DNA of 53,306 bases from Candidatus Levyibacteriota bacterium (lineage in GTDB: Bacteria; Patescibacteriota; Microgenomatia; Levybacterales; UBA12049): positions 1-53,306 of the forward strand of contig JAGOPV010000006.1 in the NCBI GenBank assembly GCA_017991775.1, in the 5' to 3' direction. The notes under the pieces are model-generated. The model had not been told where the DNA came from, did not search any database, and was given only the letters and a program-made list of their open reading frames with translations. Shown one piece after another: positions 39,156 to 53,306 of this stretch; the first letter of the stretch is position 1; each line of letters opens with the position of its first letter. Position numbers and translations under genes: made by a program.

Positions 39156-40489
39156 GATCTCGACCATCAGGTTTTTTAGTCCTCGTAATTATCTTCGTTA
39201 CAGTTATCTGCTTCTTGATTAATGTTCCAGACTCTTACAAATTTCAAGTGCGAGAGATCAAATTAGTCAACATGAACACGCTTCTCTCACCTCTTGGGCT
39301 TTCCCAGAGTGTTGATTTTAGAAAAGGGCTTGATCTTGAAGGTGGCACAAGTATTACACTTCAAGCAGATATGAAAGACGTGCCAAGTGCATCTCGTAAA
39401 GATGCGCTTGAGTCTGCCAAAGAGGTCATAGAGCGAAGGATTAACTATTTCGGCGTATCTGAGCCTGTCATTCAGACATCTCTAGCGAACAACAATTATA
39501 GAATTATCGTTGAGATCCCAGGCATCACAGATGTAAATCAAGCAGTTGCTCTTGTGGGTAAGACGGCTCAGCTATCATTCTGGGAGTCAGGAGAGGCATC
39601 AGGATCTGCACAGCAGGCATCTGCATCTGCACTTCCAATAGGCGTAGCTGAGATTTTGGGACCTGGCGCAAAGCCTACTTCGCTTACGGGGAGTGATCTT
39701 AAGAAGGCAGCAGTAACATTTAATCCAAATACAGGCGAGCCACAGGTCGATCTTTCATTTACATCAGGTGGAGCGAAGAAGTTCGGAGATATTACAAAGC
39801 GAAACGTTGGTAAGATAGTCGGAATTGTCCTTGATAATACGCTAATTCAGTATCCAAGAGTTAATCAGCCTATTTTGACAGGTAATGCACAGATCACAGG
39901 TGGATTTAATGTTGAGCAGGCTAAGGCACTTCAAATTCAACTCAATGCAGGAGCACTTCCTGTGTCTCTTGAAGTTCTAGCACAGCGAGCAATTGGTGCC
40001 AGCCTCGGAGATGAGACACTGCAGAAGAGCGTTATAGCAGGTTTAATTGGTTTTCTTGCCATCACCATATTCATGATTGGACTTTATGGAAGACTCGGAG
40101 CAATCGCCTCGCTTGCGTTAGTCGTTTATACGTTGATTAACCTCACAATTTATAGATTAGTTCCAATTACGCTTACACTTGCTGGGATTGCTGGCTTTAT
40201 TTTATCAATTGGCATTGCGGTTGATGCTAATATTTTAATTTTTGAGAGAATACGGGAGGAAGTAAGAAAAGGTAAATCTATTCACGCTTCAATAGATATT
40301 GGATTTTCAAGAGCATGGGCATCAATTCGAGACTCAAATATCGCAAGTCTTATTACAAGTGCAATACTGATGATCATGGCTACGGGAATCGTGCGAGGAT
40401 TTGCGCTGACATTGGCAATTGGAGTTTTGGTATCATTGTTCTCTGCAGTTGTTGTGACCAAAACATTATTAAGAATTGTTTATAAATAA
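39152..40489 (+). CDS. secD: Protein translocase subunit SecD
   Basis: SecD with SecF uses the proton motive force to draw exported proteins outward after SecA-driven transport. The 445-residue form has TM1 (about 7-25), LDLEGGTSITLQAD, an outer P1 domain with ERRINYFGVSEPVIQ, and the SecD/SecF membrane core with GFILSIGIAVDANILIFERIREE. It is shorter than E. coli SecD (615) because of a smaller outer domain, as in many Gram-positives. The ATG overlaps the regulator gene stop (ATGA). Confidence 0.97.
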   Translation: MRSRPSGFLVLVIIFVTVICFLINVPDSYKFQVREIKLVNMNTLLSPLGLSQSVDFRKGLDLEGGTSITLQADMKDVPSASRKDALESAKEVIERRINYFGVSEPVIQTSLANNNYRIIVEIPGITDVNQAVALVGKTAQLSFWESGEASGSAQQASASALPIGVAEILGPGAKPTSLTGSDLKKAAVTFNPNTGEPQVDLSFTSGGAKKFGDITKRNVGKIVGIVLDNTLIQYPRVNQPILTGNAQITGGFNVEQAKALQIQLNAGALPVSLEVLAQRAIGASLGDETLQKSVIAGLIGFLAITIFMIGLYGRLGAIASLALVVYTLINLTIYRLVPITLTLAGIAGFILSIGIAVDANILIFERIREEVRKGKSIHASIDIGFSRAWASIRDSNIASLITSAILMIMATGIVRGFALTLAIGVLVSLFSAVVVTKTLLRIVYK

Positions 40490-40492
40490 TTT

Positions 40493-41410
40493 ATGTTAGA
40501 TATAATAGGTAAAAAGAATATTTATTTTTTAATTTCACTGATCGTGATCATCCCGGGTCTCGTATCTCTCTTTATTTTTGGACTGAGACTTTCGATTGAA
40601 TTTACTGGAGGATCAAGGCTTACTCTTGTTTATCCAAAGACAGTTGATCAGAAGTTAGTACAGGATATTAGATCTACATTTGAAGAAGCTATGGTTGAAG
40701 TCTCTTCTATCTCGCCGGCAAAAACATCTGTAATTGTCCGCACAGCACCAATGACCCAGAAACAAGATATTCAGATCACGGACGCTTTAAGGGAGAAGAC
40801 AGGTCAATTTACTCAGGCAGATTTTGATACGGTTGGACCAGTCATTGGTCAGGAGACAACAAACAAAGCAGTGCTGGCAGTACTCTTTGCCTCAATCTTG
40901 ATCGTTATTTATATCGCAATGTCATTTAGGAAAGTTCCAAGACCTGCAAGTAGTTGGAGATTTGGAGTTTGTGCTATCCTAGCTGTCTTGCATGATGCAT
41001 TAGTGCTCATTGGTATTTTCTCTCTGCTTGGACACTTCCTTCATGTTGAAGTAGATAGCCTTTTTATTACAGCTGTATTAACTGTTATTGGGTTCTCGGT
41101 TCATGATACTATCGTAGTTTTTGATCGTATCCGTGAAAATCTCCTAAAAACGAGCGGGATTCCCTTCCCACAGCTTGTAAATAATTCTATTCTTCAGACG
41201 ATCACACGCTCACTCAATACTTCACTTACAGCTATTATTGTGCTCGTAACGTTACTTATTTTTGGAGGGGAAAGTGTGAGATGGTTCGTCGTAGCACTTC
41301 TTATTGGAATTATCAGTGGAACTTACTCAAGCATTTTTAATGCTGCACCACTTCTTGTCACCTGGCAGGAATGGGATCTTAAGAGAAAGAAGAGCATTAC
41401 TTCAAAATAA
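40493..41410 (+). CDS. secF: Protein translocase subunit SecF
   Basis: The 305-residue partner of SecD has FGLRLSIEFTGGSRLTL after TM1, a short outer domain, the core spans with LTVIGFSVHDTIVVFDRIREN, and a final LLIFGGESVRWF...GTYSSIFNAAPLL. It lies 3 bases after secD. The 3' end overlaps the convergent NTPase gene by 14 bases. Confidence 0.97.
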   Translation: MLDIIGKKNIYFLISLIVIIPGLVSLFIFGLRLSIEFTGGSRLTLVYPKTVDQKLVQDIRSTFEEAMVEVSSISPAKTSVIVRTAPMTQKQDIQITDALREKTGQFTQADFDTVGPVIGQETTNKAVLAVLFASILIVIYIAMSFRKVPRPASSWRFGVCAILAVLHDALVLIGIFSLLGHFLHVEVDSLFITAVLTVIGFSVHDTIVVFDRIRENLLKTSGIPFPQLVNNSILQTITRSLNTSLTAIIVLVTLLIFGGESVRWFVVALLIGIISGTYSSIFNAAPLLVTWQEWDLKRKKSITSK

Positions 41411-41963
41411 ATTCAGGCCTATTCAATTTTATCCATTCAGCGAATTCATTATATAGAGGTGACGACTCAAGAACACTAGGATCATCCTCAAGTTTTTTAG
41501 CAATAGTTACCCCATCATCTGACATTGAAATTATTTCCTGAGCTGGAAGCGCTTTTCCCTGTTTCTTTGTTAAAATTGTACCAATGTGATCGGCTGTAAA
41601 AAACTGTGGACCATTATGATCGATAAAACAGATAGTGTCATGAAGAATTACCTCTCGATTATTTTTTCCTTCCATAAGCCTAAGAAGATCATCAGTTGTT
41701 AGCCAATTATTTATGTAGTGCATAAATGGACCAGGAAAGCCATTTAATGCGGTTATGGCCCATGAATGATCAGAGATGAATAGTGGCTGTTTTAATACTG
41801 TAAAAGCAGACTCTGCTTTTTTAATTGAAATCTCTTTAAAATCTTCTGATTGAACCTCGTCAATATTTAATCCTTGAGAAGTAAAATCAATCCTGTGTGG
41901 AGAAAGAAATTTATTTGCAATTTCAATTTTACTTGCATTGGAAGTTACAAAAATTAAAGACAT
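41397..41963 (-). CDS. Divergent HAM1/RdgB-like NTP pyrophosphatase
   Basis: The 188-residue protein looks like the enzymes that hydrolyse non-canonical purine NTPs (dITP, XTP). The start FVTSNASKIEIA matches the (V)TxNxxK nucleotide motif, and ISDHSWAITALNGFPGPF corresponds to ADDSGLxVxALxGxPG. The C-terminal SHR motif that closes the base pocket is not found, and several other positions differ, so substrate range may be altered. ATG 41963 lies 1 base after the yqeY stop. Confidence 0.75.
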   Translation of the reverse strand: MSLIFVTSNASKIEIANKFLSPHRIDFTSQGLNIDEVQSEDFKEISIKKAESAFTVLKQPLFISDHSWAITALNGFPGPFMHYINNWLTTDDLLRLMEGKNNREVILHDTICFIDHNGPQFFTADHIGTILTKKQGKALPAQEIISMSDDGVTIAKKLEDDPSVLESSPLYNEFAEWIKLNRPEFILK

Positions 41964-41964
41964 T

Positions 41965-42417
41965 TTAAGATGAGAGGATTTCGCGAACAATTTTACTAAC
42001 TAGGCTGCCATCAGCCTTGCCTTTCGTCTGGGGACTTAGGGCTCCCATGACTTTACCCATGTCTGAAGCACTTGATGCTCCAGTATCAGTAATCGTTTTT
42101 GCTACTAGTGTACGTATTTCCTCCTCAGTCATTTGTGCTGGAAGGTACTTGCTGATCATGTCGAGTTCTTGCTGCTCTTTCTCCGCTAGCTCTGGTCTAC
42201 CGCCTGTTGTGAACTGCTCAATTGAGTCTCTACGCTGCTTTGCTTGAGCCTGAATCACATTCATCACATCTTCGTCGGTAGCAGTGTATCCTGCTCCTCC
42301 CTTATTTATTTCATAGTACTGGACTGCTGAAATGATCATGCGAAGAACTGAAGTCTGTTCAGTGTCCCTTGCGAGCATAGAGGCTTTGAGATCGTCTTTT
42401 AGTTGTTGTAATGACAT
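41965..42417 (-). CDS. GatB/YqeY domain protein
   Basis: The 150-residue helical protein reads LKDDLKASMLARDTEQTSVLRMIISAVQYYEINKG, then EQFTTGGRPELAEKEQQELDMISKYLPAQMTEEEI and DMGKVMGALSPQTKGKADGSLVSKIVREIL. This is the stand-alone YqeY family, which shares only the tRNA-tail domain with GatB. The role is unknown; tRNA binding is likely. A TACACT box with TGc before it ends 9 nt before the ATG. It heads a two-gene unit with the NTPase. Confidence 0.93.
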   Translation of the reverse strand: MSLQQLKDDLKASMLARDTEQTSVLRMIISAVQYYEINKGGAGYTATDEDVMNVIQAQAKQRRDSIEQFTTGGRPELAEKEQQELDMISKYLPAQMTEEEIRTLVAKTITDTGASSASDMGKVMGALSPQTKGKADGSLVSKIVREILSS

Positions 42418-42426
42418 AGTAATTGC

Positions 42427-42432
42427 AGTGTA
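42427..42432 (-). promoter_or_regulatory. Extended -10 box for yqeY
   Basis: Minus-strand TGC-TACACT ends 9 nt before ATG 42417. Confidence 0.5.
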
Positions 42433-42448
42433 GCATACTTATGCTCAT

Positions 42449-43234
42449 TTAATAAAGTTTAGTTACACCGTTTCTGAGAACTTTTTTAAAGCTAGACCTA
42501 AGAAGAAGCAGTCCAAGAGTTAGATAGACGATGTTAAGTCCAAGGCCAATAAAGAACTTATTACTGTCAAAGTGGCCTGTTGCAACCACTTCCCGCATGC
42601 CTTCAAATACGTAACTTGTAGGCAGAAAATGAGCGATAGTTTGAGCCCAATCCGGTAATATTGTGATGGGATAATAGATCGCAGAGAATGGTGCGAAAAT
42701 CCATGGCATACTCCATGCAAGTGTTTGTACTTTAGTTCCAAAGCGCATGACTATGCTTGCAATAATAAATCCAACCCACCACCCCGACAACAGAAGTATA
42801 AAGGCAAAAGGCAGGAGGCTGAATCCATAGACAAAAATACTGGTTTTATACAGAATCAGCGCAATACCTGAGGCAAATAGGAAGCTCATGATGCCCTTTG
42901 TAATACCCATGAAAAGCCATGCTGATACCCATTCAGAAAACTTAAGTGGAGTTATGAAGATATTAATCATATTTCTATTCCAGAGTTCCTCAAGAAGTCC
43001 AATTGAGATTTCATACTGTGCTCTCCAAAAAATGATCCAGAATACAATTCCTGAGACAATAATCAGCAGTATATTAGTGTCCCCACCTGAGGTCTGCTTG
43101 ATATATGCGCTTGTAAGACCCCAGAGAAGGAGGTCTAAAAGTGGCCAATAGAAAGCATCTGACATCTTGTCATAGCTGTGACGAAATGCAAATAAATGCC
43201 TAAGAATTATTCCAAAAATTCGGTGTAATTTCAT
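42449..43234 (-). CDS. ABC-2 type exporter permease
   Basis: The 261-residue protein has six membrane spans in the ABC-2 layout and family phrases such as NMINIFITPLKFSEWVSAWLFMGITKGI and MPWIFAPFSAIYYPITILPDWAQTIAHFLPTSYVFEGMREV. It is the membrane half of an exporter with the upstream ATPase, overlapping it by 4 bp. The substrate could be a lipid, glycan or drug; nothing here decides. Confidence 0.92.
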   Translation of the reverse strand: MKLHRIFGIILRHLFAFRHSYDKMSDAFYWPLLDLLLWGLTSAYIKQTSGGDTNILLIIVSGIVFWIIFWRAQYEISIGLLEELWNRNMINIFITPLKFSEWVSAWLFMGITKGIMSFLFASGIALILYKTSIFVYGFSLLPFAFILLLSGWWVGFIIASIVMRFGTKVQTLAWSMPWIFAPFSAIYYPITILPDWAQTIAHFLPTSYVFEGMREVVATGHFDSNKFFIGLGLNIVYLTLGLLLLRSSFKKVLRNGVTKLY

Positions 43235-44163
43235 ATTAGTTTTTTTGACTTTTGCAAAAAATAATCTTCAAGCGATGGTTTGTCGATGCTAATTTCTTCA
43301 AAGAGAATATTATTCTCTGATAATTCTCTCAAGAATTCTGCAATCTCTTTTTCCTTTACATCTATTCTCAATTTGTTTTTACCTACTTCTATATACGACA
43401 ACTTTTTTGAGATGCAGTGACTAATAAGGGCTTTGCTATTTTTCTGTGAGAATAGTTCGACGTGACATAGTTCAATTGAGCGAGCCAACTTCTCTGGAGT
43501 ATCATTTGCAATTATTTCTCCATGATTAATAAAGAGGACTCTGTCACAGAGTTCCTCTACTTCAGACATATTGTGAGAGGTGAAGAGAATTGAAAGCGAG
43601 TATTTCTTTCGCTCACTTTGAATAAAATCTCTAATGTACAAAGCTACATCAGGGTCAAGAGATGCGGTGGGCTCATCCAGAAGGAGTATTTTGGGAGAGT
43701 TAAGAAATGCTTTTGCTATGTTTACTCGCGTCATTTGCCCAGCAGAGAGCTGTCCGATACTTTTGTGCAAAATTTCTTCTAATCTAAATGTCTCAACAAT
43801 TTCCTTAACCCTAGCCTTCCGATTTTTAATCGAATAGAGATATGATAGGTACGTTAAGTTTTCCCAAACTGTAAGATTCCAGGGAAGGTTGGTATAGGTT
43901 GATGAAAAGTTAACTTGCTCTAATATTTCTTCTCTGTTTGATTGAATATCTTTTCCAAAATAAGAAACCGATCCTGAAGTTGGCGTGAGCAACCCCATTA
44001 AAAGCTGTATGGTTGTTGTCTTTCCAGCTCCATTTGGCCCCAAAAATCCTAGTATCTCACCCTCCTTAACAGAAAAGGATATGTTATTAACTGCAGTAAA
44101 GCTCTTAGGTCCACTGCCATAGATTTTGACGAGATTTCTCACCTCAATTACTGATTTTTTCAT
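43231..44163 (-). CDS. ABC transporter ATPase (ABC-2 exporter)
   Basis: The 310-residue ATPase has Walker A GPNGAGKTTT (about 39-48), the signature LSAGQMTRVNIAKAF (SAGQ in place of SGGQ), Walker B ILLLDEPTASLDP, and the switch His in FTSHNMSE. The C-terminal extension (about 225-310) is typical of DrrA/CcmA-type exporters. It pairs with the permease downstream. No clear promoter was assigned. The 169-base gap 44164-44332 after the DUF2079 gene shows no recognisable element. Confidence 0.93.
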   Translation of the reverse strand: MKKSVIEVRNLVKIYGSGPKSFTAVNNISFSVKEGEILGFLGPNGAGKTTTIQLLMGLLTPTSGSVSYFGKDIQSNREEILEQVNFSSTYTNLPWNLTVWENLTYLSYLYSIKNRKARVKEIVETFRLEEILHKSIGQLSAGQMTRVNIAKAFLNSPKILLLDEPTASLDPDVALYIRDFIQSERKKYSLSILFTSHNMSEVEELCDRVLFINHGEIIANDTPEKLARSIELCHVELFSQKNSKALISHCISKKLSYIEVGKNKLRIDVKEKEIAEFLRELSENNILFEEISIDKPSLEDYFLQKSKKLI

Positions 44164-44332
44164 AAAGATTATTTTGATTAAGCGCCAGAAATGAGGAGAG
44201 TAAATGACTAGAGGTTGCTAGTAATTTTTTGTGTTGTTCGTATCATGATAATAGATTGTGACAATTCTCCGCAGCTGTTGGCAACTCAGCTATAAATCAT
44301 TATAGAAAGAAGGTCAAAGTTTTGCAAGCATC

Positions 44333-45778
44333 TTAGAGGACTTTATAAATTTTAGCAGTGTCAATTTGTTTAAAAAGAGTTATCCTTTTTTCTTTTTCAA
44401 GATTTGTAAGTGCATTTATAAATTCATCATGATTTGTGAGCCAGTGTCTTGTATCCCATTCAGTTGATGTATCAACGATGATGAATTCAGGATTGCCAGG
44501 CCATCGTAGCCAGTCGCACGTTGGATTGCCGCATGGTGAATCGTTACTGAAATTCTTTTTCTCGGGCCATAATGTAAAAATATTCTCTCTATGATTAATA
44601 TGGGGAGTAATATTGTTTTGTGATGCTACAGCGGCAGTTTCTGGTAGTTCCGGTAGAATTTTTTCAATATTTATTGCTCCAATAGGTTTAGTCCAGAACC
44701 AACTCTTTGCAAAGTAGCTAAGTGGTAAATGAAGAATGTATTGCATTCCTAATGCAAAGAGTAGGATATATGCACCAGTTATCCAATGATTCAATTTTTT
44801 AAATTTTACAATCGAGTAAATTGTGCCTAAGGCGAGAAGTGTTGCAAGTGTGACCCGGTAATGAAGAAAAATACTTTGGGCTGAGGTGACATAGTCACTT
44901 CCTAGGACAAAATAATGCCCCATATCTGCTAGAACAGGAATGACAAAAAGTGGTGCGAGTAGGGGGAGAAAGCCAAACCACGCCAAAGAATAGATGATGA
45001 CGTCTCTTTTTGCTGTGGTGTCATAAAAGTTTCTCAGATCTATATTTGAGAGGAGCCCGTTCTCATTTTGAAATCTATATCCATCCTTTGTGAAGTGGGG
45101 GAAATAAACATAGAAAATCAGGAGGATGTATCCAACTGATCCGCCCATGATATAGATAAGAGGTCTCCATTTTGTTTTGAGGTAATATATTCCAGCTAGT
45201 AGAAATGTGAGGAGGGCTATATCCTCCTTGCAGGAAAGTAATAGGATGAAAAAGATCGTCATCCATTTTGTATCTTTCTTTTCAATAAAGTAGATAAACC
45301 ATGGGAGAAATGATGCTGCAAAAACCAGACTATGTACATCAGCCCAGATGGCATTTTGAATTCCATAAAAAAGGAGGAAGCTAATTAATATGGAATAGGA
45401 GAGAACAGGCTTGAGCTTCTTCATCTTTGCGATAAAGAAAATAGGTAGTGCAGAGAAGCTAATTGCAAATGCCTGAAGAGCAATAAGAATTCTTACATCA
45501 TTTGCTATCCAATAAATGGGCGATATAAGTCCATAAATTATTTCAACATGATCAGTAAATAGCGAGGTGAATGCATAGGCATGAGGTGTCGATATTGGAT
45601 TTTTGAATTGACTCATCAGCCATATTCCTTGATCGCTGACTGCGAGGTCATATCCAGAGAGAAAGTGGTCATGCTTAACAATTGAGAGCATAGAGTATGC
45701 AATGGCAAAAAGGAGACAAATAGCATACGGCAAATAGCGTATGACAAATTGTAGTATGGGATTGTTTCTAAGAATCAT
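44333..45778 (-). CDS. DUF2079 membrane protein (GT-C-like)
   Basis: The 481-residue protein has about ten membrane spans, an early loop GYDLAVSDQGIWLMSQFKNP, and ILLLSCKEDIALLTFLLAGIY. These match DUF2079, a family thought to share the GT-C glycosyltransferase fold. The C-terminal ~110 residues are soluble. It overlaps the CCA-adding enzyme stop by 4 bp (ATGA), so the two are co-translated although functionally unrelated. Confidence 0.85.
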   Translation of the reverse strand: MILRNNPILQFVIRYLPYAICLLFAIAYSMLSIVKHDHFLSGYDLAVSDQGIWLMSQFKNPISTPHAYAFTSLFTDHVEIIYGLISPIYWIANDVRILIALQAFAISFSALPIFFIAKMKKLKPVLSYSILISFLLFYGIQNAIWADVHSLVFAASFLPWFIYFIEKKDTKWMTIFFILLLSCKEDIALLTFLLAGIYYLKTKWRPLIYIMGGSVGYILLIFYVYFPHFTKDGYRFQNENGLLSNIDLRNFYDTTAKRDVIIYSLAWFGFLPLLAPLFVIPVLADMGHYFVLGSDYVTSAQSIFLHYRVTLATLLALGTIYSIVKFKKLNHWITGAYILLFALGMQYILHLPLSYFAKSWFWTKPIGAINIEKILPELPETAAVASQNNITPHINHRENIFTLWPEKKNFSNDSPCGNPTCDWLRWPGNPEFIIVDTSTEWDTRHWLTNHDEFINALTNLEKEKRITLFKQIDTAKIYKVL

Positions 45779-47157
45779 ACAAGTTCTTTAACTCTCGTGA
45801 GTAGGAATTCACGCGTATTTTTTGAAAGATCCTCATCAACCTCCTCAAAAAGTTTTTGAAGAAGATCGCCCACTTCTCGACCCGGCTTTATTCCTAATTC
45901 AGACATAAGATCATTGCCATCAACTGCAAGATCTTTTGTGGAGAATGGTAGCGGTGCGAGCTGTACTTCGACTCTTTTTTTAAAGAGAGTCAATCTCCAA
46001 CTTTCGGCTGTTTGAGTTCCTCCTCCAAGCCGATCTCCAATTCTCAGATCCATCATGTCTTTTACATTCTCAACTCCAATTCTTCGTATAAATCTTCTGA
46101 CTGCACTGTCTGTGATATGTTCGTCAACTGTGAACATATGCCACCGAATTAATTTGGCAACTTTCTCCCGATCTCTTCTTGAGAATCGGAGTCTATCACA
46201 TATTTCATACGCCATCTTACTCCCAACAATCTCGTGATTATGAAAAATAACAAGCCCATCACGATCTGGCGTGGCGACTCTTGGCTTGCCAACATCATGA
46301 ATGAGTGTTGCAAATCTCACCAACGGGTCTTTTGATGGGCAAAACTTTAAAGAGAATACGTTATGTTCAAAAACGTCCGTTGTATGATGTCTGCCGGGGC
46401 GTTTTTGCGATATGCCGACACCCTCTAGTAATTCTGGGAGGATAAATGTGAGGATCCCTGTATTTTTGAGTATCATTATTCCCTCAAAAGGATAATCGCT
46501 CCCCAGTATTTTCATAAATTCATCTCGAATTCTTTCCTGGGATATATTTTTAATAAGAGTTGCATCATTTGTGACAGCTGAAAGTGTATCTTCCTCAATA
46601 GTGAATGAGAGTTGTGTTGCAAATCTAATTGCCCGCATGAGTCGTAGCGCATCTTCCTTAAAGCGTTCATTTGGATCGCCAACTGCGCGAATGAGTTTGG
46701 CATCAAGATCCTTTCTACCATTATATGGGTCGATAATTGAATCGCTCGTTACGTCCAATGGACGAATATTTCTTGGCTGAAGTTCAAGTGCCATGGCATT
46801 AATAGTAAAATCTCTTCTTGAGAGATCTTCCTCAATTGTCTTGCCCCAGGACACCTTATCTGGATGTCGATTGTTCGCATAGCCCTCCTCAGTTCTAAAT
46901 GTGGTAATTTCAACAACTATTTTCTCCTGATTAAACATGAGGGGAATCCCCACAGTTCCGAATACGTTGTCATAGAATCCCTCAGGGAAAAGCGAAAGGA
47001 TTTGCTCTGGAGTTGCATTGGTGGTTAGATCCCAATCCTTGACTTGCTTTTCAAGTAAGATATTACGTAGAGAGCCACCGACAAGGAACAGCGTGAAGTT
47101 ATTCTCAGAGAATTTTAGGGCAATGTCATTAATGAATTCTGGAATTGTTATTTGCAT
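45775..47157 (-). CDS. CCA-adding enzyme / poly(A) polymerase family with HD domain
   Basis: The enzyme adds or repairs the 3' CCA of tRNAs. The 460-residue protein has the class II nucleotidyltransferase head FLVGGSLRNILLEKQVKDWDLTT (GG, then DxD), DFTINAMALE, the RNA-binding part with RFKEDALRLMRAIRFATQLSF, and an HD domain with LIHDVGKPRV and FHNHEIVGSKMA for metal-dependent phosphohydrolysis. ATG 47157 is chosen because homology begins there; the in-frame extension to 47361 runs across the divergent recJ start. Confidence 0.93.
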   Translation of the reverse strand: MQITIPEFINDIALKFSENNFTLFLVGGSLRNILLEKQVKDWDLTTNATPEQILSLFPEGFYDNVFGTVGIPLMFNQEKIVVEITTFRTEEGYANNRHPDKVSWGKTIEEDLSRRDFTINAMALELQPRNIRPLDVTSDSIIDPYNGRKDLDAKLIRAVGDPNERFKEDALRLMRAIRFATQLSFTIEEDTLSAVTNDATLIKNISQERIRDEFMKILGSDYPFEGIMILKNTGILTFILPELLEGVGISQKRPGRHHTTDVFEHNVFSLKFCPSKDPLVRFATLIHDVGKPRVATPDRDGLVIFHNHEIVGSKMAYEICDRLRFSRRDREKVAKLIRWHMFTVDEHITDSAVRRFIRRIGVENVKDMMDLRIGDRLGGGTQTAESWRLTLFKKRVEVQLAPLPFSTKDLAVDGNDLMSELGIKPGREVGDLLQKLFEEVDEDLSKNTREFLLTRVKELV

Positions 47158-47215
47158 AGTATTTGATTCATAATGGGGCTTGTAATAGTATAGCAAAACT
47201 ATATTTATGTAACTT

Positions 47216-48892
47216 ATGAATATTAGTGAAAAGAAATGGATTGTTAGTGATTCGACTACATATAGCGATCCTGATTCAGTCGTAAATGCTCTCTTAGCTA
47301 CCAGGGGAATAGATGATAAAAGTAAGCAATCATTTCTCAAACCTATGCTATCAAGCCTCACTCTTGAGTCAGTAGGGATAGATAGTCAGGGAGTAAGAAA
47401 GGCAATAAAGCGGATTAAGATTGCCATTGATAAAAAAGAGCAAATTATTGTCTATGGGGATTATGATGTTGATGGCATAACTGGCGCTGCGATACTTTGG
47501 GAGACTTTGTATGCACTTGGTGGAAATGTCCTGCCATACATTCCTCACCGAGTGGATGAGGGATATGGCCTGTCAGAGAAGGGAATACAGAACCTACTTG
47601 CTTCTACTCCTCCTAAGCTCATCATTACAGTAGATAATGGTATAGTCGCACATACCGCTGTGGATTTTGCAAAAAAGCATGGAATTGATGTAATCATTAC
47701 TGACCACCATGTGGTTGATGGAGATCGTGCACTTCCAGATGCGCATTCATTTGTTCATACAACTAAGCTTTGTGGCTCATCAGTTGCTTTGCTTTTCTCC
47801 AAAGAAATAAAGGATCAATTTGCAGATTCAGCCTCAGAATTCGATAAAGAGCACCTCATTCTTGCAGCCTTAGCAACGGTTGCTGATCTTGTCTCACTGA
47901 CTCAGGAAAATAGAACTATTCTTATGGTGGGATTGAAATTGATTCGCTCCACAGAGCGGATTGGCCTTCGAGAACTACTCAAGATCTCAGGTCTTGAGGG
48001 TAAAGAAATTGGAGTTTACGAGATTGGTCATATCATCGCGCCTCGTCTCAATGCAGCTGGGAGAATAGAAAGTGGGATGGATAGTCTTCGCTTGCTTTGT
48101 ACAAAAGATAGTAAAAAGGCCCAAGAACTGGCGAGTGCGCTTGATGAGGTCAATAAAAAAAGACAAATTCTCATGAAGGATTCAGCACTCCTTGCTATTG
48201 AGAGAGCGAGATCAATTCAGCAGGATAAGAAAATTATCATCGTGGATGAAGAAGAATTTGAAGAGGGAATAATCGGACTTGTGGCAGGTAAGCTGGTAGA
48301 AGAATTTTATAAGCCCTCTATTGCAATAGCTAAAAGGGCTGATGTAAGTAAGGGATCTGTTCGTTCAGTCAGTGGCGTAAATATAATCGAAATGCTTCGA
48401 TTAAAATCTGATCTATTTATTAATGCAGGCGGGCACCCAATGGCTGCAGGATTTACTGTCAAAACAAGTAATATTGAAATAATGAAGAAAGTGCTTGAAA
48501 GTATTGCTGAAGAAATTGTAACGTTGGATCATCTGCTTCGTGCAATTAAGATTGATCTTTTTATACCACTCTCCTTTTCGCTAACTGAACTGTATGGTCA
48601 AATACAAGCACTTGCACCTTTTGGCATGGGCAACCCTGAGCCATTATTTTTAGCAAAGAACGTTATTATTCGTGATAAGCGGATTATCGGTAAAGATCAG
48701 ACGCATGTGAGATTTGTATTGTCAGCAGATGAGATTTCAACGCCATTTGAAGCTATTGCATTCGGTATGGCAGAGAAGTCTGTTGGTATTGAAAAAGACG
48801 ATACGATTGATATTGCCTACACCTTAGACACCAACACGTGGAATGATGTGACAAAGTTGCAGCTGAAACTAAGAGATTTTAGGCGAAGTTAA
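47216..48892 (+). CDS. recJ: Single-strand DNA exonuclease RecJ
   Basis: RecJ degrades single-stranded DNA 5' to 3' in recombination and repair. The 558 residues include the DHH motifs VYGDYDVDGITGAAILWETL, IITVDNGI, VIITDHHVVDG, and ATVADLVSL, plus the DHHA1 part with FINAGGHPMAAGFTV, followed by the C-terminal OB part (APFGMGNPEPLFLAKNV). A TATATT box ends 10 nt before the ATG as a possible promoter. The 3' end overlaps the convergent small gene by 4 bases. Confidence 0.96.
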   Translation: MNISEKKWIVSDSTTYSDPDSVVNALLATRGIDDKSKQSFLKPMLSSLTLESVGIDSQGVRKAIKRIKIAIDKKEQIIVYGDYDVDGITGAAILWETLYALGGNVLPYIPHRVDEGYGLSEKGIQNLLASTPPKLIITVDNGIVAHTAVDFAKKHGIDVIITDHHVVDGDRALPDAHSFVHTTKLCGSSVALLFSKEIKDQFADSASEFDKEHLILAALATVADLVSLTQENRTILMVGLKLIRSTERIGLRELLKISGLEGKEIGVYEIGHIIAPRLNAAGRIESGMDSLRLLCTKDSKKAQELASALDEVNKKRQILMKDSALLAIERARSIQQDKKIIIVDEEEFEEGIIGLVAGKLVEEFYKPSIAIAKRADVSKGSVRSVSGVNIIEMLRLKSDLFINAGGHPMAAGFTVKTSNIEIMKKVLESIAEEIVTLDHLLRAIKIDLFIPLSFSLTELYGQIQALAPFGMGNPEPLFLAKNVIIRDKRIIGKDQTHVRFVLSADEISTPFEAIAFGMAEKSVGIEKDDTIDIAYTLDTNTWNDVTKLQLKLRDFRRS

Positions 48893-49260
48893 TCGCTAGA
48901 TGTGTATCCTATGATTTGATTACCTACTTGTCTTCCTCTTTGAACTTCCTCAACAATGCTCAGTTTATCGCCATAATGACTATCAGCGACTTGAAGGATA
49001 TGTGCTAGTTGCTGCTCATGAGTTCGTTCCCCTGTTTTGTCCCCGTTTTCTCTTGCTAGGATATACGCATTTACTATTTGTGCATGTTGCTCTGCATGCC
49101 TAGTTAATTGGTCGGCAACGTCCATATGTGCGATTTCCCAGAGCGGAACTGATGCAGTTCGTGCAAGCTCAAGTGCAGCTGCTCGTTGCTCAGGGTTTTT
49201 CACAATAGCATGATATGCAGGTTTAATTTCTGTATGTGGTGTTTTTCTAAATTCGCTCAT
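48889..49260 (-). CDS. Unrecognised small helical protein under attenuator-like leader
   Basis: This 123-residue soluble protein is mostly helical, with many His, Gln and Glu (EIAHMDVADQLTRHAEQHAQIVNAYILARENGDKTGE). It matches no family I know. ATG 49260 is the preferred start; GTG at 49350 would force translation through the terminator hairpin. No -10 lies close upstream. Instead, a near-consensus promoter sits about 120 bases back, with a leader ORF and alternative hairpins between, so expression is probably conditional. It has no operon partner. Confidence 0.65.
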   Translation of the reverse strand: MSEFRKTPHTEIKPAYHAIVKNPEQRAAALELARTASVPLWEIAHMDVADQLTRHAEQHAQIVNAYILARENGDKTGERTHEQQLAHILQVADSHYGDKLSIVEEVQRGRQVGNQIIGYTSSD

Positions 49261-49268
49261 ATTTTTCC

Positions 49269-49321
49269 AAAAAAAAATCTCCCAGTGAGGGAGATTGTGT
49301 ATGCACGCATGACAATCTCCC
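49269..49321 (-). promoter_or_regulatory. Attenuator: alternative antiterminator/terminator hairpins
   Basis: On the minus strand segment 1 GGGAGATTG (49321-49313) can pair over 9 bp with segment 2 CAATCTCCC (49297-49289). Segment 2 can instead pair over 8 bp (AATCTCCC) with segment 3 GGGAGATT (49283-49276), giving a 5-nt loop and a run of U that ends 8 nt before the ATG. The 1:2 and 2:3 structures exclude each other, as in classical attenuators. Confidence 0.75.
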
Positions 49322-49322
49322 G

Positions 49323-49373
49323 CTAGGAATAGCGATCGAACATGTGGCACGCGTTTTGAATTGAAGTTGTCAT
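49323..49373 (-). CDS. 16-codon leader peptide
   Basis: The short frame encodes MTTSIQNACHMFDRYS and stops (TAG) one base before attenuator segment 1. Its ATG is 9 nt after the TATAAT box, the same spacing as nfo, yqeY and gltX, so it should be read as a near-leaderless ORF. A ribosome at its stop codon would cover segment 1. There is no run of one amino acid, so a regulatory codon cannot be named. Confidence 0.5.
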   Translation of the reverse strand: MTTSIQNACHMFDRYS

Positions 49374-49382
49374 ACGAAGGTC

Positions 49383-49412
49383 ATTATAGACTCATTCTTT
49401 CGATCTTGTCAA
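49383..49412 (-). promoter_or_regulatory. Near-consensus promoter for the attenuated gene
   Basis: Minus-strand TTGACA (49412-49407), 18-nt spacer, TATAAT (49388-49383). It has the best combination of -35 and -10 in the window. Its -35 overlaps that of the divergent aspS promoter. Confidence 0.8.
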
Positions 49413-49434
49413 TAAAGGCATTTCAATGTATCAT
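49406..49434 (+). promoter_or_regulatory. Promoter for aspS
   Basis: TTGTCA (49406-49411), 17-nt spacer, TATCAT (49429-49434), giving a leader of about 13 nt to ATG 49454. The -35 overlaps the minus-strand TTGACA, so the two promoters should compete. Confidence 0.65.
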
Positions 49435-49453
49435 ATGCGAAGCAAATTAAAAT

Positions 49454-50794
49454 ATGAATAGAACACTTATTAAAAATGTTATTGTTTCTGTCGGAGAGAA
49501 AGTTCTGCTTCAAGGATGGGTTGATACAAAAAGAGACCACGGCAAATTAACCTTCATAGACCTTCGAGATCGATCTGGAAAAGTTCAATGTGTCGGATTT
49601 GAGAAGATGAGTGATCTGACTATCCAATCAGCTGTTGAGTTAACTGGAACTGTGAAGGCTCGTCCTGAAAGAATGGTCAATAAAGAACTTCCAACAGGAA
49701 CAGTTGAGATAGATGTTGAAGAATATACAGTTCTTGGTAAAGCAGAACCACTACCATTTGACATCGGCAAGAAAGAGTTAGATTTAGAGCTCCCCACATT
49801 ACTCGATCATCGTGGTCTTACCTTAAGACATCCAAAGGTGCAGGCTATTTTTAAGGTTCAAGCAGTAATTATTGATTCATTTAGAGAGTTCATGAAGTCA
49901 CAAGACTTTATGGAATTTCAAGCTCCCGCGATTACCCCTGCGGTTGCAGAAGGTGGATCAGAAGTTTTTGAAGTTGGATATTTCGAGCATAAGGCATATT
50001 TAACTCAGAGCCCACAGTTATATAAGCAAATAGTTATGAGTGCTTTTGAAAGAGTATTTAGCGTAAATAAGGTTTTTAGAGCAGAGCCTAGTATAACGAC
50101 ACGACACTTAACCGAGATAGTTTCACTTGATGCGGAGATGGCATTCATTAAGGATTGGAAGGACGTCCGAGATATGGCAGATCAAACGGTAAAATATATC
50201 TTTAAGCAATTGGAAGAAAAATGTCAGAATGAACTTGCGTTATTCGATGTAACTTTACCCACTGTAATTGAACAAACGCCTACAATGAGTCTTAAAGAAG
50301 CACAGGAAAAAATTTATGAAAATTCAAAGAGGGATGTTCGAAATGAAAAAGATCTTAATCCCGAAGACGAGCGCGAGATATGCGACATTGTAAAAAGAGA
50401 GACTGGTTCAGATCTTGTATTTATTTATGGGTATCCAACTAAGAAAAAACCATTTTATGTTTATCCAAATCCCGAAAATCCTGAAGTAAATGAAGGGATG
50501 GATCTTTTATGTAGAGGACTTGAATGGCTGTCTGGTGGACGAAGGGTAAATGATTATTCACAACTTTTAGATCAAGTTCGAGAGTGGGGAATGGACCCGG
50601 AGAAGATCAAACTATTCCTGGAAGCATTTAAGTATGGTGTCCCTCCTGAAGGTGGATTTGCATTTGGTGCAGAGAGAATTACGATGCAGGTATTGGGCTT
50701 GAAAAATGTGAGAGAAGCAGTTATGTTCCCACGAGACATGGAAAGAGTTGATTTCAGATTGTCCTCAACTGATAATACAGAGCAAAATAGCTGA
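49454..50794 (+). CDS. aspS: Archaeal/eukaryotic-type aspartyl-tRNA synthetase
   Basis: The 446-residue class II enzyme has an OB anticodon domain (about 1-110: VLLQGWVDTKRDHGKLTFIDLRDRSG) and a catalytic domain with TQSPQLYKQ, motif 2 VFRAEPSITTRHLTEIVSLDAEMAF, and motif 3 GFAFGAERITMQVLGLKNVREAVMFPRD. It lacks the large GAD insert of bacterial AspRS. This is the archaeal-type AspS2, often non-discriminating (charging tRNA-Asn too, then needing GatCAB). AsnRS is a less likely alternative. Confidence 0.85.
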   Translation: MNRTLIKNVIVSVGEKVLLQGWVDTKRDHGKLTFIDLRDRSGKVQCVGFEKMSDLTIQSAVELTGTVKARPERMVNKELPTGTVEIDVEEYTVLGKAEPLPFDIGKKELDLELPTLLDHRGLTLRHPKVQAIFKVQAVIIDSFREFMKSQDFMEFQAPAITPAVAEGGSEVFEVGYFEHKAYLTQSPQLYKQIVMSAFERVFSVNKVFRAEPSITTRHLTEIVSLDAEMAFIKDWKDVRDMADQTVKYIFKQLEEKCQNELALFDVTLPTVIEQTPTMSLKEAQEKIYENSKRDVRNEKDLNPEDEREICDIVKRETGSDLVFIYGYPTKKKPFYVYPNPENPEVNEGMDLLCRGLEWLSGGRRVNDYSQLLDQVREWGMDPEKIKLFLEAFKYGVPPEGGFAFGAERITMQVLGLKNVREAVMFPRDMERVDFRLSSTDNTEQNS

Positions 50795-50810
50795 GACAGT
50801 TATTTCTTGC

Positions 50811-50816
50811 TATACT
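50811..50816 (+). promoter_or_regulatory. -10 box for the D,D-carboxypeptidase gene
   Basis: TATACT ends 6 nt before ATG 50823. This rejects the longer in-frame start at 50748. Confidence 0.7.
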
Positions 50817-50822
50817 ACGTCA

Positions 50823-51779
50823 ATGTCAGCTTCTCCTCATATCCACCGTGCAAAGAGCACACTTACGCATGTAGATAAGCATTCTCACCTTTATCTCCTG
50901 CCTATCATCCTCCTGGTCATTTACTTCATCCTCTCAAGTACGGTAGCGATATTTTCTAAAAGAGTTACCCTCCTTAAGCTTACGAATGCAACACAGAGTC
51001 AAAAGATTGTGTCATACCCATACTTTAGCAGGTCAATAGAGCCCTATCTTTCAGCGGAGTCTGCGATCATCATGGATAAAGATTCATACGCAGTTCTTTT
51101 TGAGAAGAATAGCCAGACTCGATTTTCAATGGCTTCAACTACAAAGGTTATGACTGCGCTAACCGCGCTTGATTACTATAAAGATACAGATATTCTTACT
51201 GCTAGAAGAAGTGAAGTCGAGGGAGTTAATGTTGGGCTGAAAATTGGTGAGAGAATGTATTTTAATGATGCGTTGTATGCGATGTTGTTACCTTCTGGAA
51301 ATGATGTGGCCTATCTTTTTGCAGATAATTATCCTGGTGGTAAGGCAGAATTTCTCAAAGCAATGAATGAGAAGGCAAGATCTTTGCACCTTGAAAACAC
51401 TCACTATGAAGACCCAGCAGGACTCAACGATGATGGCAACTATACGACAGCTCGGGACCTGGCTAGACTTGGAATGGCAGCAAGTGCTAATCCCGTACTA
51501 GCAAAAGTAATGGGGTCAAAATTTCAGTTCGTGACTGATGTGAGCAAGTCTCATAAATTTAATCTAACCAACTTGAATAAGCTGCTCGGTTCGTACGGAG
51601 TTATTGGTGGAAAGACTGGTTTTACTGAGGGGGCTGAGGGCGTTCTTATGACAATTGCAGACATTAAAGGAAGAAAATATATTGTTGTAGTAATGCGAAG
51701 TGAAGATAGATTCTTAGATACTCAACAGTTGTTAATGCCGCTACAGGAAAGTGTTGTTGAGTTTACTCCCGGAGTTTAA
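50823..51779 (+). CDS. D-alanyl-D-alanine carboxypeptidase (PBP5/DacF family)
   Basis: The enzyme trims the terminal D-Ala of peptidoglycan stem peptides outside the membrane. The 318-residue protein has an N-terminal anchor (about 22-44) and the three serine-peptidase motifs: SxxK as STTK (105-108), SGN (158-160) and KTG (264-266). There is no PBP5-like C-terminal beta domain or amphipathic helix, so the N-terminal span holds it. ATG 50823 fits the TATACT box 6 nt upstream. Its 3' end overlaps the convergent gene by 4 bases. Confidence 0.95.
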   Translation: MSASPHIHRAKSTLTHVDKHSHLYLLPIILLVIYFILSSTVAIFSKRVTLLKLTNATQSQKIVSYPYFSRSIEPYLSAESAIIMDKDSYAVLFEKNSQTRFSMASTTKVMTALTALDYYKDTDILTARRSEVEGVNVGLKIGERMYFNDALYAMLLPSGNDVAYLFADNYPGGKAEFLKAMNEKARSLHLENTHYEDPAGLNDDGNYTTARDLARLGMAASANPVLAKVMGSKFQFVTDVSKSHKFNLTNLNKLLGSYGVIGGKTGFTEGAEGVLMTIADIKGRKYIVVVMRSEDRFLDTQQLLMPLQESVVEFTPGV

Positions 51780-52822
51780 TTCGCTTTATTGATCCACTCT
51801 GATTTGACCGCAGATACGTATGCGCTAAATCCATCCTTGCCTTCAAATACAAAAACTGGCATGACATATTCTTGCTTTGCGACACCAAGATAATATCCAA
51901 GGTAGACTTTTTTGATAACTATGTCAGTGCTACTTCCAAAATATGATCCTACATATGCACCATTCTTCTTAAGGAGAGAGTATGCATCGTTTACACTAAT
52001 AAGTGGATATGTTGAAGACTCGTTGCTAATAGTTTGGTGATTAAAACTTGCTTCCATCAGCTCTCTTGTATTGGCACCCCCAACAATAAAATGCATCGTT
52101 GTGTGGGGTGGGTTTGGGTAGACGATTTGAAATTTATCAAGATCTGATTGGTAGAGATCGATACGTGCAATTTGTGCATCTGATGGTGTGAGTGCGGCTA
52201 CTAACTTTTCATCTTCTAACTTGAGTAAATCAACGTTAGTTTGGAGAATATCTATATCTGATGGGAAAAGTCCAAGTAGTGACAGAAATTCAGTGACTTC
52301 ATTTTTAGCATTTTCCTCGTTCACTCTTCCATTAGCCGCAAGATCTGGATAAGTAAGGAAGTTGGAGTCGATACTAAAGTCTTTTGAAACGATATTTACT
52401 GTGAGTCTTTTTTCTGGGCGAACTACCTCATTCCACGCGTAAGTAGTGTCATTTAATTTGGTCCGATTGAACGTGAATGAAGTTTTGGCAACAAGACTTT
52501 GAGTAGATTGAAGCGAGAGCAGATTTGGTTCACTTACTACGGTTTTGTAGACTTTCAATCTATCGGGAAACTCGCCAAGATTACCAGAGACGGTATCAAG
52601 GCTGTATTTATATTTTTCCTGCGTCACACTTTCTGGAAAAACTAGTGGTGGAAGTGCGTTAAATGCAGCTTCAGGAGCAGGACCTGGTTTGGGGAAAAGG
52701 CTTGAGTAGAGTGAGACGGCACCCTTTGAGAGAAAAAAGAGTAAGATTGCGAGGAGAATCCCTCCACCGCCAAATATAGCTACTTTTTTAGTAATGGAGG
52801 TAGCTTGGGACAGAGTAGGCAT
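51776..52822 (-). CDS. Membrane-anchored outer protein, unknown
   Basis: The 348-residue protein has one N-terminal span (about 15-40, VAIFGGGGILLAILLFFLSKGAVSLY), then a Pro-rich stretch and an outer beta-rich domain of about 290 residues. ESVTQEKYKYSLDTVSGNLGEFPDRLKVYKTV and the ending YLGYYLGVAKQEYVMPVFVFEGKDGFSAYVSAVKSEW are regular enough to be a conserved domain, but I cannot name it. ATG 52822 is supported by TATACT 6 nt upstream. It diverges from gltX. Confidence 0.65.
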   Translation of the reverse strand: MPTLSQATSITKKVAIFGGGGILLAILLFFLSKGAVSLYSSLFPKPGPAPEAAFNALPPLVFPESVTQEKYKYSLDTVSGNLGEFPDRLKVYKTVVSEPNLLSLQSTQSLVAKTSFTFNRTKLNDTTYAWNEVVRPEKRLTVNIVSKDFSIDSNFLTYPDLAANGRVNEENAKNEVTEFLSLLGLFPSDIDILQTNVDLLKLEDEKLVAALTPSDAQIARIDLYQSDLDKFQIVYPNPPHTTMHFIVGGANTRELMEASFNHQTISNESSTYPLISVNDAYSLLKKNGAYVGSYFGSSTDIVIKKVYLGYYLGVAKQEYVMPVFVFEGKDGFSAYVSAVKSEWINKAN

Positions 52823-52828
52823 GTATTG

Positions 52829-52834
52829 AGTATA
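52829..52834 (-). promoter_or_regulatory. -10 box for the anchored outer protein gene
   Basis: Minus-strand TATACT ends 6 nt before ATG 52822; it is back to back with the gltX -10, 14 bases away. Confidence 0.65.
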
Positions 52835-52848
52835 AGTAATCACAAATG

Positions 52849-52854
52849 TATAAT
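52849..52854 (+). promoter_or_regulatory. -10 box for gltX
   Basis: TATAAT ends 9 nt before ATG 52864. Confidence 0.6.
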
Positions 52855-52863
52855 CAACTTACT

Positions 52864-53306
52864 ATGAAACAAGTACGTACTAGAATAGCACCTTCTCCAA
52901 CTGGATATCCCCATATTGGCACTGTCTATCAAGTGTTGTTCGACTATGCTTATGCAAGAAAATATGACGGTAAATTTATACTTCGTATTGAGGATACTGA
53001 CCGAGCTAGGTTTGTTGATGGAGCAGAAGAGGTTATTTATTCTGCCCTAGATTGGTTTAGTCTATCACCAGACGAGAGTCCATTGCATCAAGGTGAGTAT
53101 GGTCCTTATAGGCAGTCAGAGAGACTACCAATTTATAGGAAGTATGCAGATGAGCTTGTTGAAAAGGGTCATGCATATCTATGTTTTTGTACTAAAGAAC
53201 GTCTTGAAGAGATGCGAAAAGGAATGGAGCAGCGGCATGAAATGCCAATGTATGACAGAAAATGCAGGAGCCTTTCACCTGAGGAGATAAAGAATCAGTT
53301 GGCTGC
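52864..53306 (+). CDS. gltX: Glutamyl-tRNA synthetase (3' end outside window)
   Basis: This class I synthetase charges tRNA with glutamate. The first 147 residues are present, with the opening MKQVRTRIAPSPTGYPHIGT holding the HIGH-like PHIGT motif, then KFILRIEDTDRARFVDGAEEVIYSALDW, GPYRQSERLPIYRKYADEL and GHAYLCFCTKERLEEMR. All match bacterial GltX closely. The frame stays open to the window edge. It lies 41 bases from the divergent unknown gene. Confidence 0.97.
   Translation, partial: MKQVRTRIAPSPTGYPHIGTVYQVLFDYAYARKYDGKFILRIEDTDRARFVDGAEEVIYSALDWFSLSPDESPLHQGEYGPYRQSERLPIYRKYADELVEKGHAYLCFCTKERLEEMRKGMEQRHEMPMYDRKCRSLSPEEIKNQLA

Follow-up and report, generated by a model that had tools for sequence, protein, structure and literature searches.

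A probable ribosome-mediated transcription attenuator with a mixed-codon leader between recJ and asnS in Candidatus Levyibacteriota

The leader in the recJ-asnS gap

Candidatus Levyibacteriota is a phylum within the Microgenomates group of the Patescibacteria. The window analyzed here, i.e., the whole contig stretch of 53,306 nucleotides from one such genome, carries recJ and an asnS-like gene on the plus strand; between them, on the minus strand, lie a promoter, a short leader ORF, a set of competing RNA arms and a small gene:

47216-48892, plus strand: recJ, the convergent neighbour, given as context only
48889-49260, minus strand: gene of a 123-aa orphan protein, convergent with recJ (ATG at 49260, coding 49260-48892 plus the stop codon)
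49269-49277, minus strand: run of nine T, which completes the intrinsic terminator; its first two T double as the end of arm 3
49276-49283, minus strand: arm 3, GGGAGATT, the 3' arm of the terminator (sequence pairing)
49289-49298, minus strand: arm 2, ACAATCTCCC, common to the antiterminator and the terminator (sequence pairing, kept in relatives)
49312-49321, minus strand: arm 1, GGGAGATTGT, 10 nt, the 5' arm of the antiterminator, starting 1 nt past the stop codon
49323-49373, minus strand: leader ORF of 16 codons, MTTSIQNACHMFDRYS (ATG at 49373, coding 49373-49326, stop TAG 49325-49323)
49367-49376, minus strand: arm 0, CGTATGACAA, whose candidate partner TTGTCATGCG (49315-49306) would, when paired without a ribosome, cover arm 1 (RNA folding)
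49383-49412, minus strand: promoter TTGACA-18-TATAAT, 12 of 12 positions as in the consensus (-35 TTGACA 49412-49407, 18-nt spacer, -10 TATAAT 49388-49383)
49454-50794, plus strand: asnS-like class II tRNA synthetase gene (Pfam tRNA-synt_2), the divergent neighbour, outside the switch

The promoter is of the sigma-70 type and the top promoter match in the region 40000-53306. The leader ATG lies 9 nt downstream of its -10 element, exactly as an earlier sequence-only reading had described promoter and ORF, and the corresponding distance is 5-14 nt in most members of the class discussed below, from which the ORF is probably leaderless. The antiterminator formed by arms 1 and 2 has 10 bp and a 13-nt loop; the terminator formed by arms 2 and 3 has 8 bp followed by the nine T, and the T-run ends 8 nt before the ATG of the downstream gene. 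Arm 2 can pair with either arm 1 or arm 3, which makes the two hairpins mutually exclusive. The sequence-only reading had placed the antiterminator segment correctly at 1 nt after the stop codon and had given the terminator hairpin and its U-run as they stand in the sequence; its 9-nt segment and 15-nt spacing are corrected here to 10 and 13 nt.

Such an arrangement is seldom produced by base composition. None of 2000 dinucleotide shuffles of the leader reached an equal antiterminator, the complete leader fold has a z of -3.0, and the terminator is the strongest of the scanned region. Scanning both strands of the 53-kb window revealed one structure of this kind, at the leader. It is single copy in the host genome (813 kb), on which ground a repeat or mobile element was rejected. 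No Rfam covariance model matched the window at gathering scores, whether of a riboswitch, a T-box or another described leader. The host genome also contains a second attenuator of the same design and another sequence (G000:C10:63206-63264), with the leader MRTQIISSKSKKNFS, ahead of a 356-aa gene without Pfam match.

The 123-aa protein, which the sequence-only reading had called unrecognised, is indeed so: the Pfam search gave nothing above the cut-off, and zero relatives were found in 99 relatives' genomes, genome contigs and viral contigs. A structure model from the single sequence is all-helical and of low confidence (pLDDT 60). The benefit that this gene would draw from such control is not arguable, because it is an orphan. 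The asnS-like gene is divergent from the switch and has its own promoter side, and a link between the two through Asn codons was sought in the recJ/asnS leaders, with nothing consistent.

Conservation at the recJ-asnS locus in relatives

The recJ-asnS gene order is retained across most of the family, and in most relatives a TTGACAAG promoter lies at the equivalent place in the gap, opposite to asnS and ahead of small genes that differ from one relative to another. Many of the leaders share the design of the window: an ORF of 14-20 codons, a stop codon a few nt from arm 1, arms 1:2 and 2:3, a T-run and the ATG of a gene. To avoid circularity, the position of the ORF was assessed after arms and promoter had been located with ORFs ignored; an ORF was then counted when it started 3-14 nt after the -10 and stopped between -3 and +4 nt from arm 1. 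Among the 16 leaders of relatives that had been defined by structure, 12 had an ORF so placed, versus 0.26 expected from shuffles (P ~1e-19, treating as independent loci that come from related genomes and are not so). The four misses include L009 and L078, whose ORF starts further on, and L088, where the script mis-assigned the promoter; the only true miss is L029, where promoter and arms are present and there is no stop codon ahead of arm 1.

A plain MAFFT alignment of the leaders was out of register, and the arms were then registered by hand, with the loops shortened. In this alignment, which is biased toward structure, both stems stay paired through paired changes (0 of 500 shuffles). More weight is given to the ORF-position test than to the stem pair counts, because hand registration leans towards structure. 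On both points the comparison with related genomes that the sequence-only reading had proposed strongly supports the switch.

The genes under the recJ/asnS leaders show homology only between close relatives and none across genera. Judged from these sequences, the switch at recJ/asnS is retained while the gene below it changes. Several relatives (L086, L089, L091, L093, L097, L098) have promoter and gene and no attenuator, so the switch is dispensable.

Other arrangements were noted in the same gap. Inverted or repeated TTGACAAG/CTTGTCA copies surround the promoter at L086, L089, L091, L101 and L103, from which the attenuator is absent; these repeats are perhaps the putative site for a DNA-binding regulator. 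Variant leaders occur at L007, L079, L080, L083 and L092 and at L081 and L082; one type has GAAG/CTTC arms, and in another the leader ORF is followed directly by a single terminator, with no antiterminator visible. One relative (L018, G005:C6) carries a tandem pair of attenuators upstream of successive small genes.

The same anatomy upstream of amino-acid genes

A covariance model of the leaders detected further copies in 32 of 61 genomes of the family (E 0.01) and, across the class, in 29 of 187 (E 0.001). The loci were rescanned for the full anatomy, with scanner thresholds that had been fixed after the first loci were seen, and the genes were named by NCBIfam and Pfam. The full anatomy was observed, with cognate codons in the leader ORF, upstream of genes for amino-acid metabolism and tRNA synthetases:

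pheS, Phe runs: MTGKLALTSFFFFSHC, MLQPLSFSFSFRI, MILTIFSTNFFFRV
AlaX-PheS fusion: MKSVNTFAFFFTS
thrS, Thr: MNQAVTLTTTTTR
hisG, HH: MLKVKAAHHNLS
ilvA, Ile: MNKNQIITITTIPS, MKIQKITIIDFITS
cysteine-synthase-like gene, CCC: MIICCCAIFP
DAHP synthase: MNSLTPTWSKYYFYFTS
SAM hydrolase, Met: MSKLIQTSMMMVMRAG

When the genes were shuffled among the leaders, 0 of 200000 permutations reached the observed match between codons and genes. As a forward test, pheS and thrS neighbourhoods were inspected afterwards for leaders. Clean, Phe-rich matches were present upstream of pheS (MKALDFFFYFTFAS, MQVPTITQTAFFKFFFT, MENFGFFYFTS, MRNIFFTCACSLS, MRKHQLNFWFYYYFTS), with another gene or a gap in between for most; MRNIFFTCACSLS had already come up in the earlier locus scan. 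A further leader near pheS, MTSFIYTSFCFRI, has a weak promoter. Thr-rich leaders were found at thrS (MLSTANHTTILFTTA, MIELINATTQLITTP, MQLNYRPTTTLSTATV). The majority of the pheS and thrS loci inspected showed no such leader, so this control is patchy. Scanning 381 kb of asnS loci of other phyla gave zero matches. The scanner matches L282 and L302, which are a single place, were set aside as apparent false positives in a coding sequence.

Several loci of the class deserve a separate mention. The fusion gene (L203:2-1366:-, G233:C6) joins an AlaX-like alanyl-tRNA editing domain in frame to the N-terminal part of PheS, below a Phe-rich leader. Genes resembling PIG-L-type deacetylases follow the Cys-rich leaders LCCGNLS, CCCAPLT and VCCTSC (L110, L112 and L219, the last assigned by eye only), a possible sign of a thiol compound derived from Cys. 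Two small orphan genes of other families (L119, L217) stand below the near-identical Phe-rich leaders MQNLRRNFGFFFTFA and MQNQRRNFNFFFTFA.

Mechanism, signal and significance

The window leader was folded with ribosome-covered parts masked, for an assumed footprint size. With the ribosome on codons 2-14, the antiterminator is predicted to form ahead of arm 3 synthesis (P 0.86-0.95); with the ribosome at the stop codon, arm 1 is masked and the terminator is favoured, in agreement with the sequence-only reading. That reading had assigned antitermination to a stalled or absent ribosome alike. The stalled case is upheld by the folding, whereas without a ribosome CGUAUGACAA at the start codon is predicted to pair with UUGUCAUGCG, covering arm 1, and the terminator would result. 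This extra pairing between leader ORF and post-stop linker exceeds that of shuffled ORFs across 45 loci (Fisher 1e-17) and at the 18 testable recJ/asnS loci (3e-10); in the window taken by itself it does not reach significance (p 0.18). With arm 3 present, the equilibrium fold often returns to the terminator, and the on state therefore has to be established co-transcriptionally.

We infer the start of transcription, the behaviour of the ribosome, and the direction and breadth of the response as follows. RNA polymerase would start about 2-3 nt upstream of the leader ATG, and a ribosome would translate the leaderless 16-codon ORF behind it. On prompt arrival at the stop codon, the ribosome would hide arm 1, arms 2 and 3 would form the terminator and the 123-aa gene would be off. 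A ribosome slowed or stalled inside the ORF would leave arm 1 free to capture arm 2 while arm 3 has yet to be transcribed, allowing read-through into the gene. Were the ribosome absent, arm 0 could cover arm 1 and the terminator would form again, as in trp. We consider it very probable that the switch of the window is a ribosome-mediated transcription attenuator controlling the 123-aa gene; what is observed directly is the anatomy, the conservation of ORF and arms, and the recurrence of this design, with matching codons, ahead of amino-acid genes.

What the leader senses is less certain than attenuation itself. A run of control codons was sought in the window leader and not found: 13 of its 15 residues are distinct (p 0.008, by a test devised after the peptide was seen), and the last nine all differ. 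Among the recJ/asnS leaders no residue or codon is recurrent, and they are more varied than their pooled composition (p 0.006). A general sensor is preferred because there is no single-codon run in the window leader, and slow translation or a general shortage of amino acids is its most likely signal, as far as the codons suggest. The same attenuator might be specific to one amino acid, e.g., Asn, Ser, Met or Cys, if a few codons sufficed. Most other clear members of the class do carry cognate codons, and NN occurs in the recJ/asnS leaders L009, L078, L019 and L032; however, in L009 and L078 these codons overlap bases able to pair with arm 1, and neither the nine differing residues at the end of the window leader nor the lack of a recurrent residue across the recJ/asnS leaders fits such a response, which we regard as unlikely. 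Induction by ribosome-targeting antibiotics or inhibitors, like that of erm and ABC-F leaders, would be mechanically compatible with a mixed-codon leader and an antiterminator formed on stalling. It appears rather improbable, as no resistance-like domain is present in the downstream protein, which moreover varies between genera, and as the same anatomy serves amino-acid genes.

Two further explanations dispense with ribosome-mediated control. The strength of the terminator would suit a constitutive early stop, from which a short RNA or peptide is made with fixed read-through and no regulation, but different genera share both the stop codon next to arm 1 and the competition between pairings, and the matches between codons and genes elsewhere demand regulation; this is very unlikely. 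Hardly any credence is given to the idea that the inverted repeats are the DNA site of a regulator or a mobile repeat, with the ORF present by chance. The arms are near-palindromic and some relatives without the attenuator have inverted repeats of the promoter sequence, yet the structure occurs once in the genome, the position of the ORF has the P of ~1e-19 given above, and stop codon, T-run and ORF are conserved.

The preferred reading has familiar counterparts. Ribosome-mediated transcription attenuation is classical, with leaders of the trp, his, phe, thr and ilv type, such as E. coli trpL. The switch of the window shares with trp-type attenuators a short leader ORF that ends directly ahead of the second pairing region, the competition of arms 1:2 and 2:3, joined by a candidate 0:1 pairing, the intrinsic terminator and the antiterminator that would follow stalling; it differs in having no run of control codons, a presumed leaderless start, an orphan gene and a host among the Patescibacteria. 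Since the search for control codons came out negative, it is placed as a general attenuator outside the amino-acid-specific family. Mixed-codon leaders that answer slowed or stalled ribosomes are known from the antibiotic-inducible erm, ABC-F and bmr attenuators, which control resistance genes, whereas no such gene follows the present leader. In Actinobacteria, classical attenuators such as those of trp and leuS precede amino-acid and tRNA-synthetase genes (PMC1262725). They too combine a leader ORF with an antiterminator and a terminator, but they belong to another phylum and their leaders contain runs of regulatory codons. Leaderless, cysteine-rich short ORFs have been proposed as attenuators in mycobacteria (PMC4633059), and leaderless mycobacterial Cys attenuators were reported by Canestrari et al. 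2020, as cited in PMC9094748. There, as predicted here, the transcript begins with a leader ORF that reports translation to the genes downstream; those leaders are Cys-specific, and no conserved terminator hairpin was found ahead of the mycobacterial cys operon (PMC1262725), whereas terminator and antiterminator are clear in the present leader. The leaderless leader peptide, which the sequence-only reading had expected to be new, is therefore not new in principle. For the Candidate Phyla Radiation, Patescibacteria and Parcubacteria, a search of the open-access literature found no paper on leader-peptide or transcription attenuation.

Patescibacteria, with their reduced genomes, are commonly thought to be poor in gene regulation. 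It is quite possible, if somewhat short of probable, that Microgenomates possess undescribed, widespread leaderless leader-peptide attenuators and that one of them, beside asnS, acquired a mixed-codon leader and a broad response to translation stress, while unrelated small orphan genes were exchanged below it and promoter, ORF and RNA switch stayed constant. The numerous attenuators whose codons match their genes, read from sequence alone within one class, would provide predicted amino-acid responses for genes of uncultured cells, and they would imply that transcription and translation are coupled in Microgenomates. The locus of the window, with its constant switch over varying genes, may point to small, fast-changing stress proteins.
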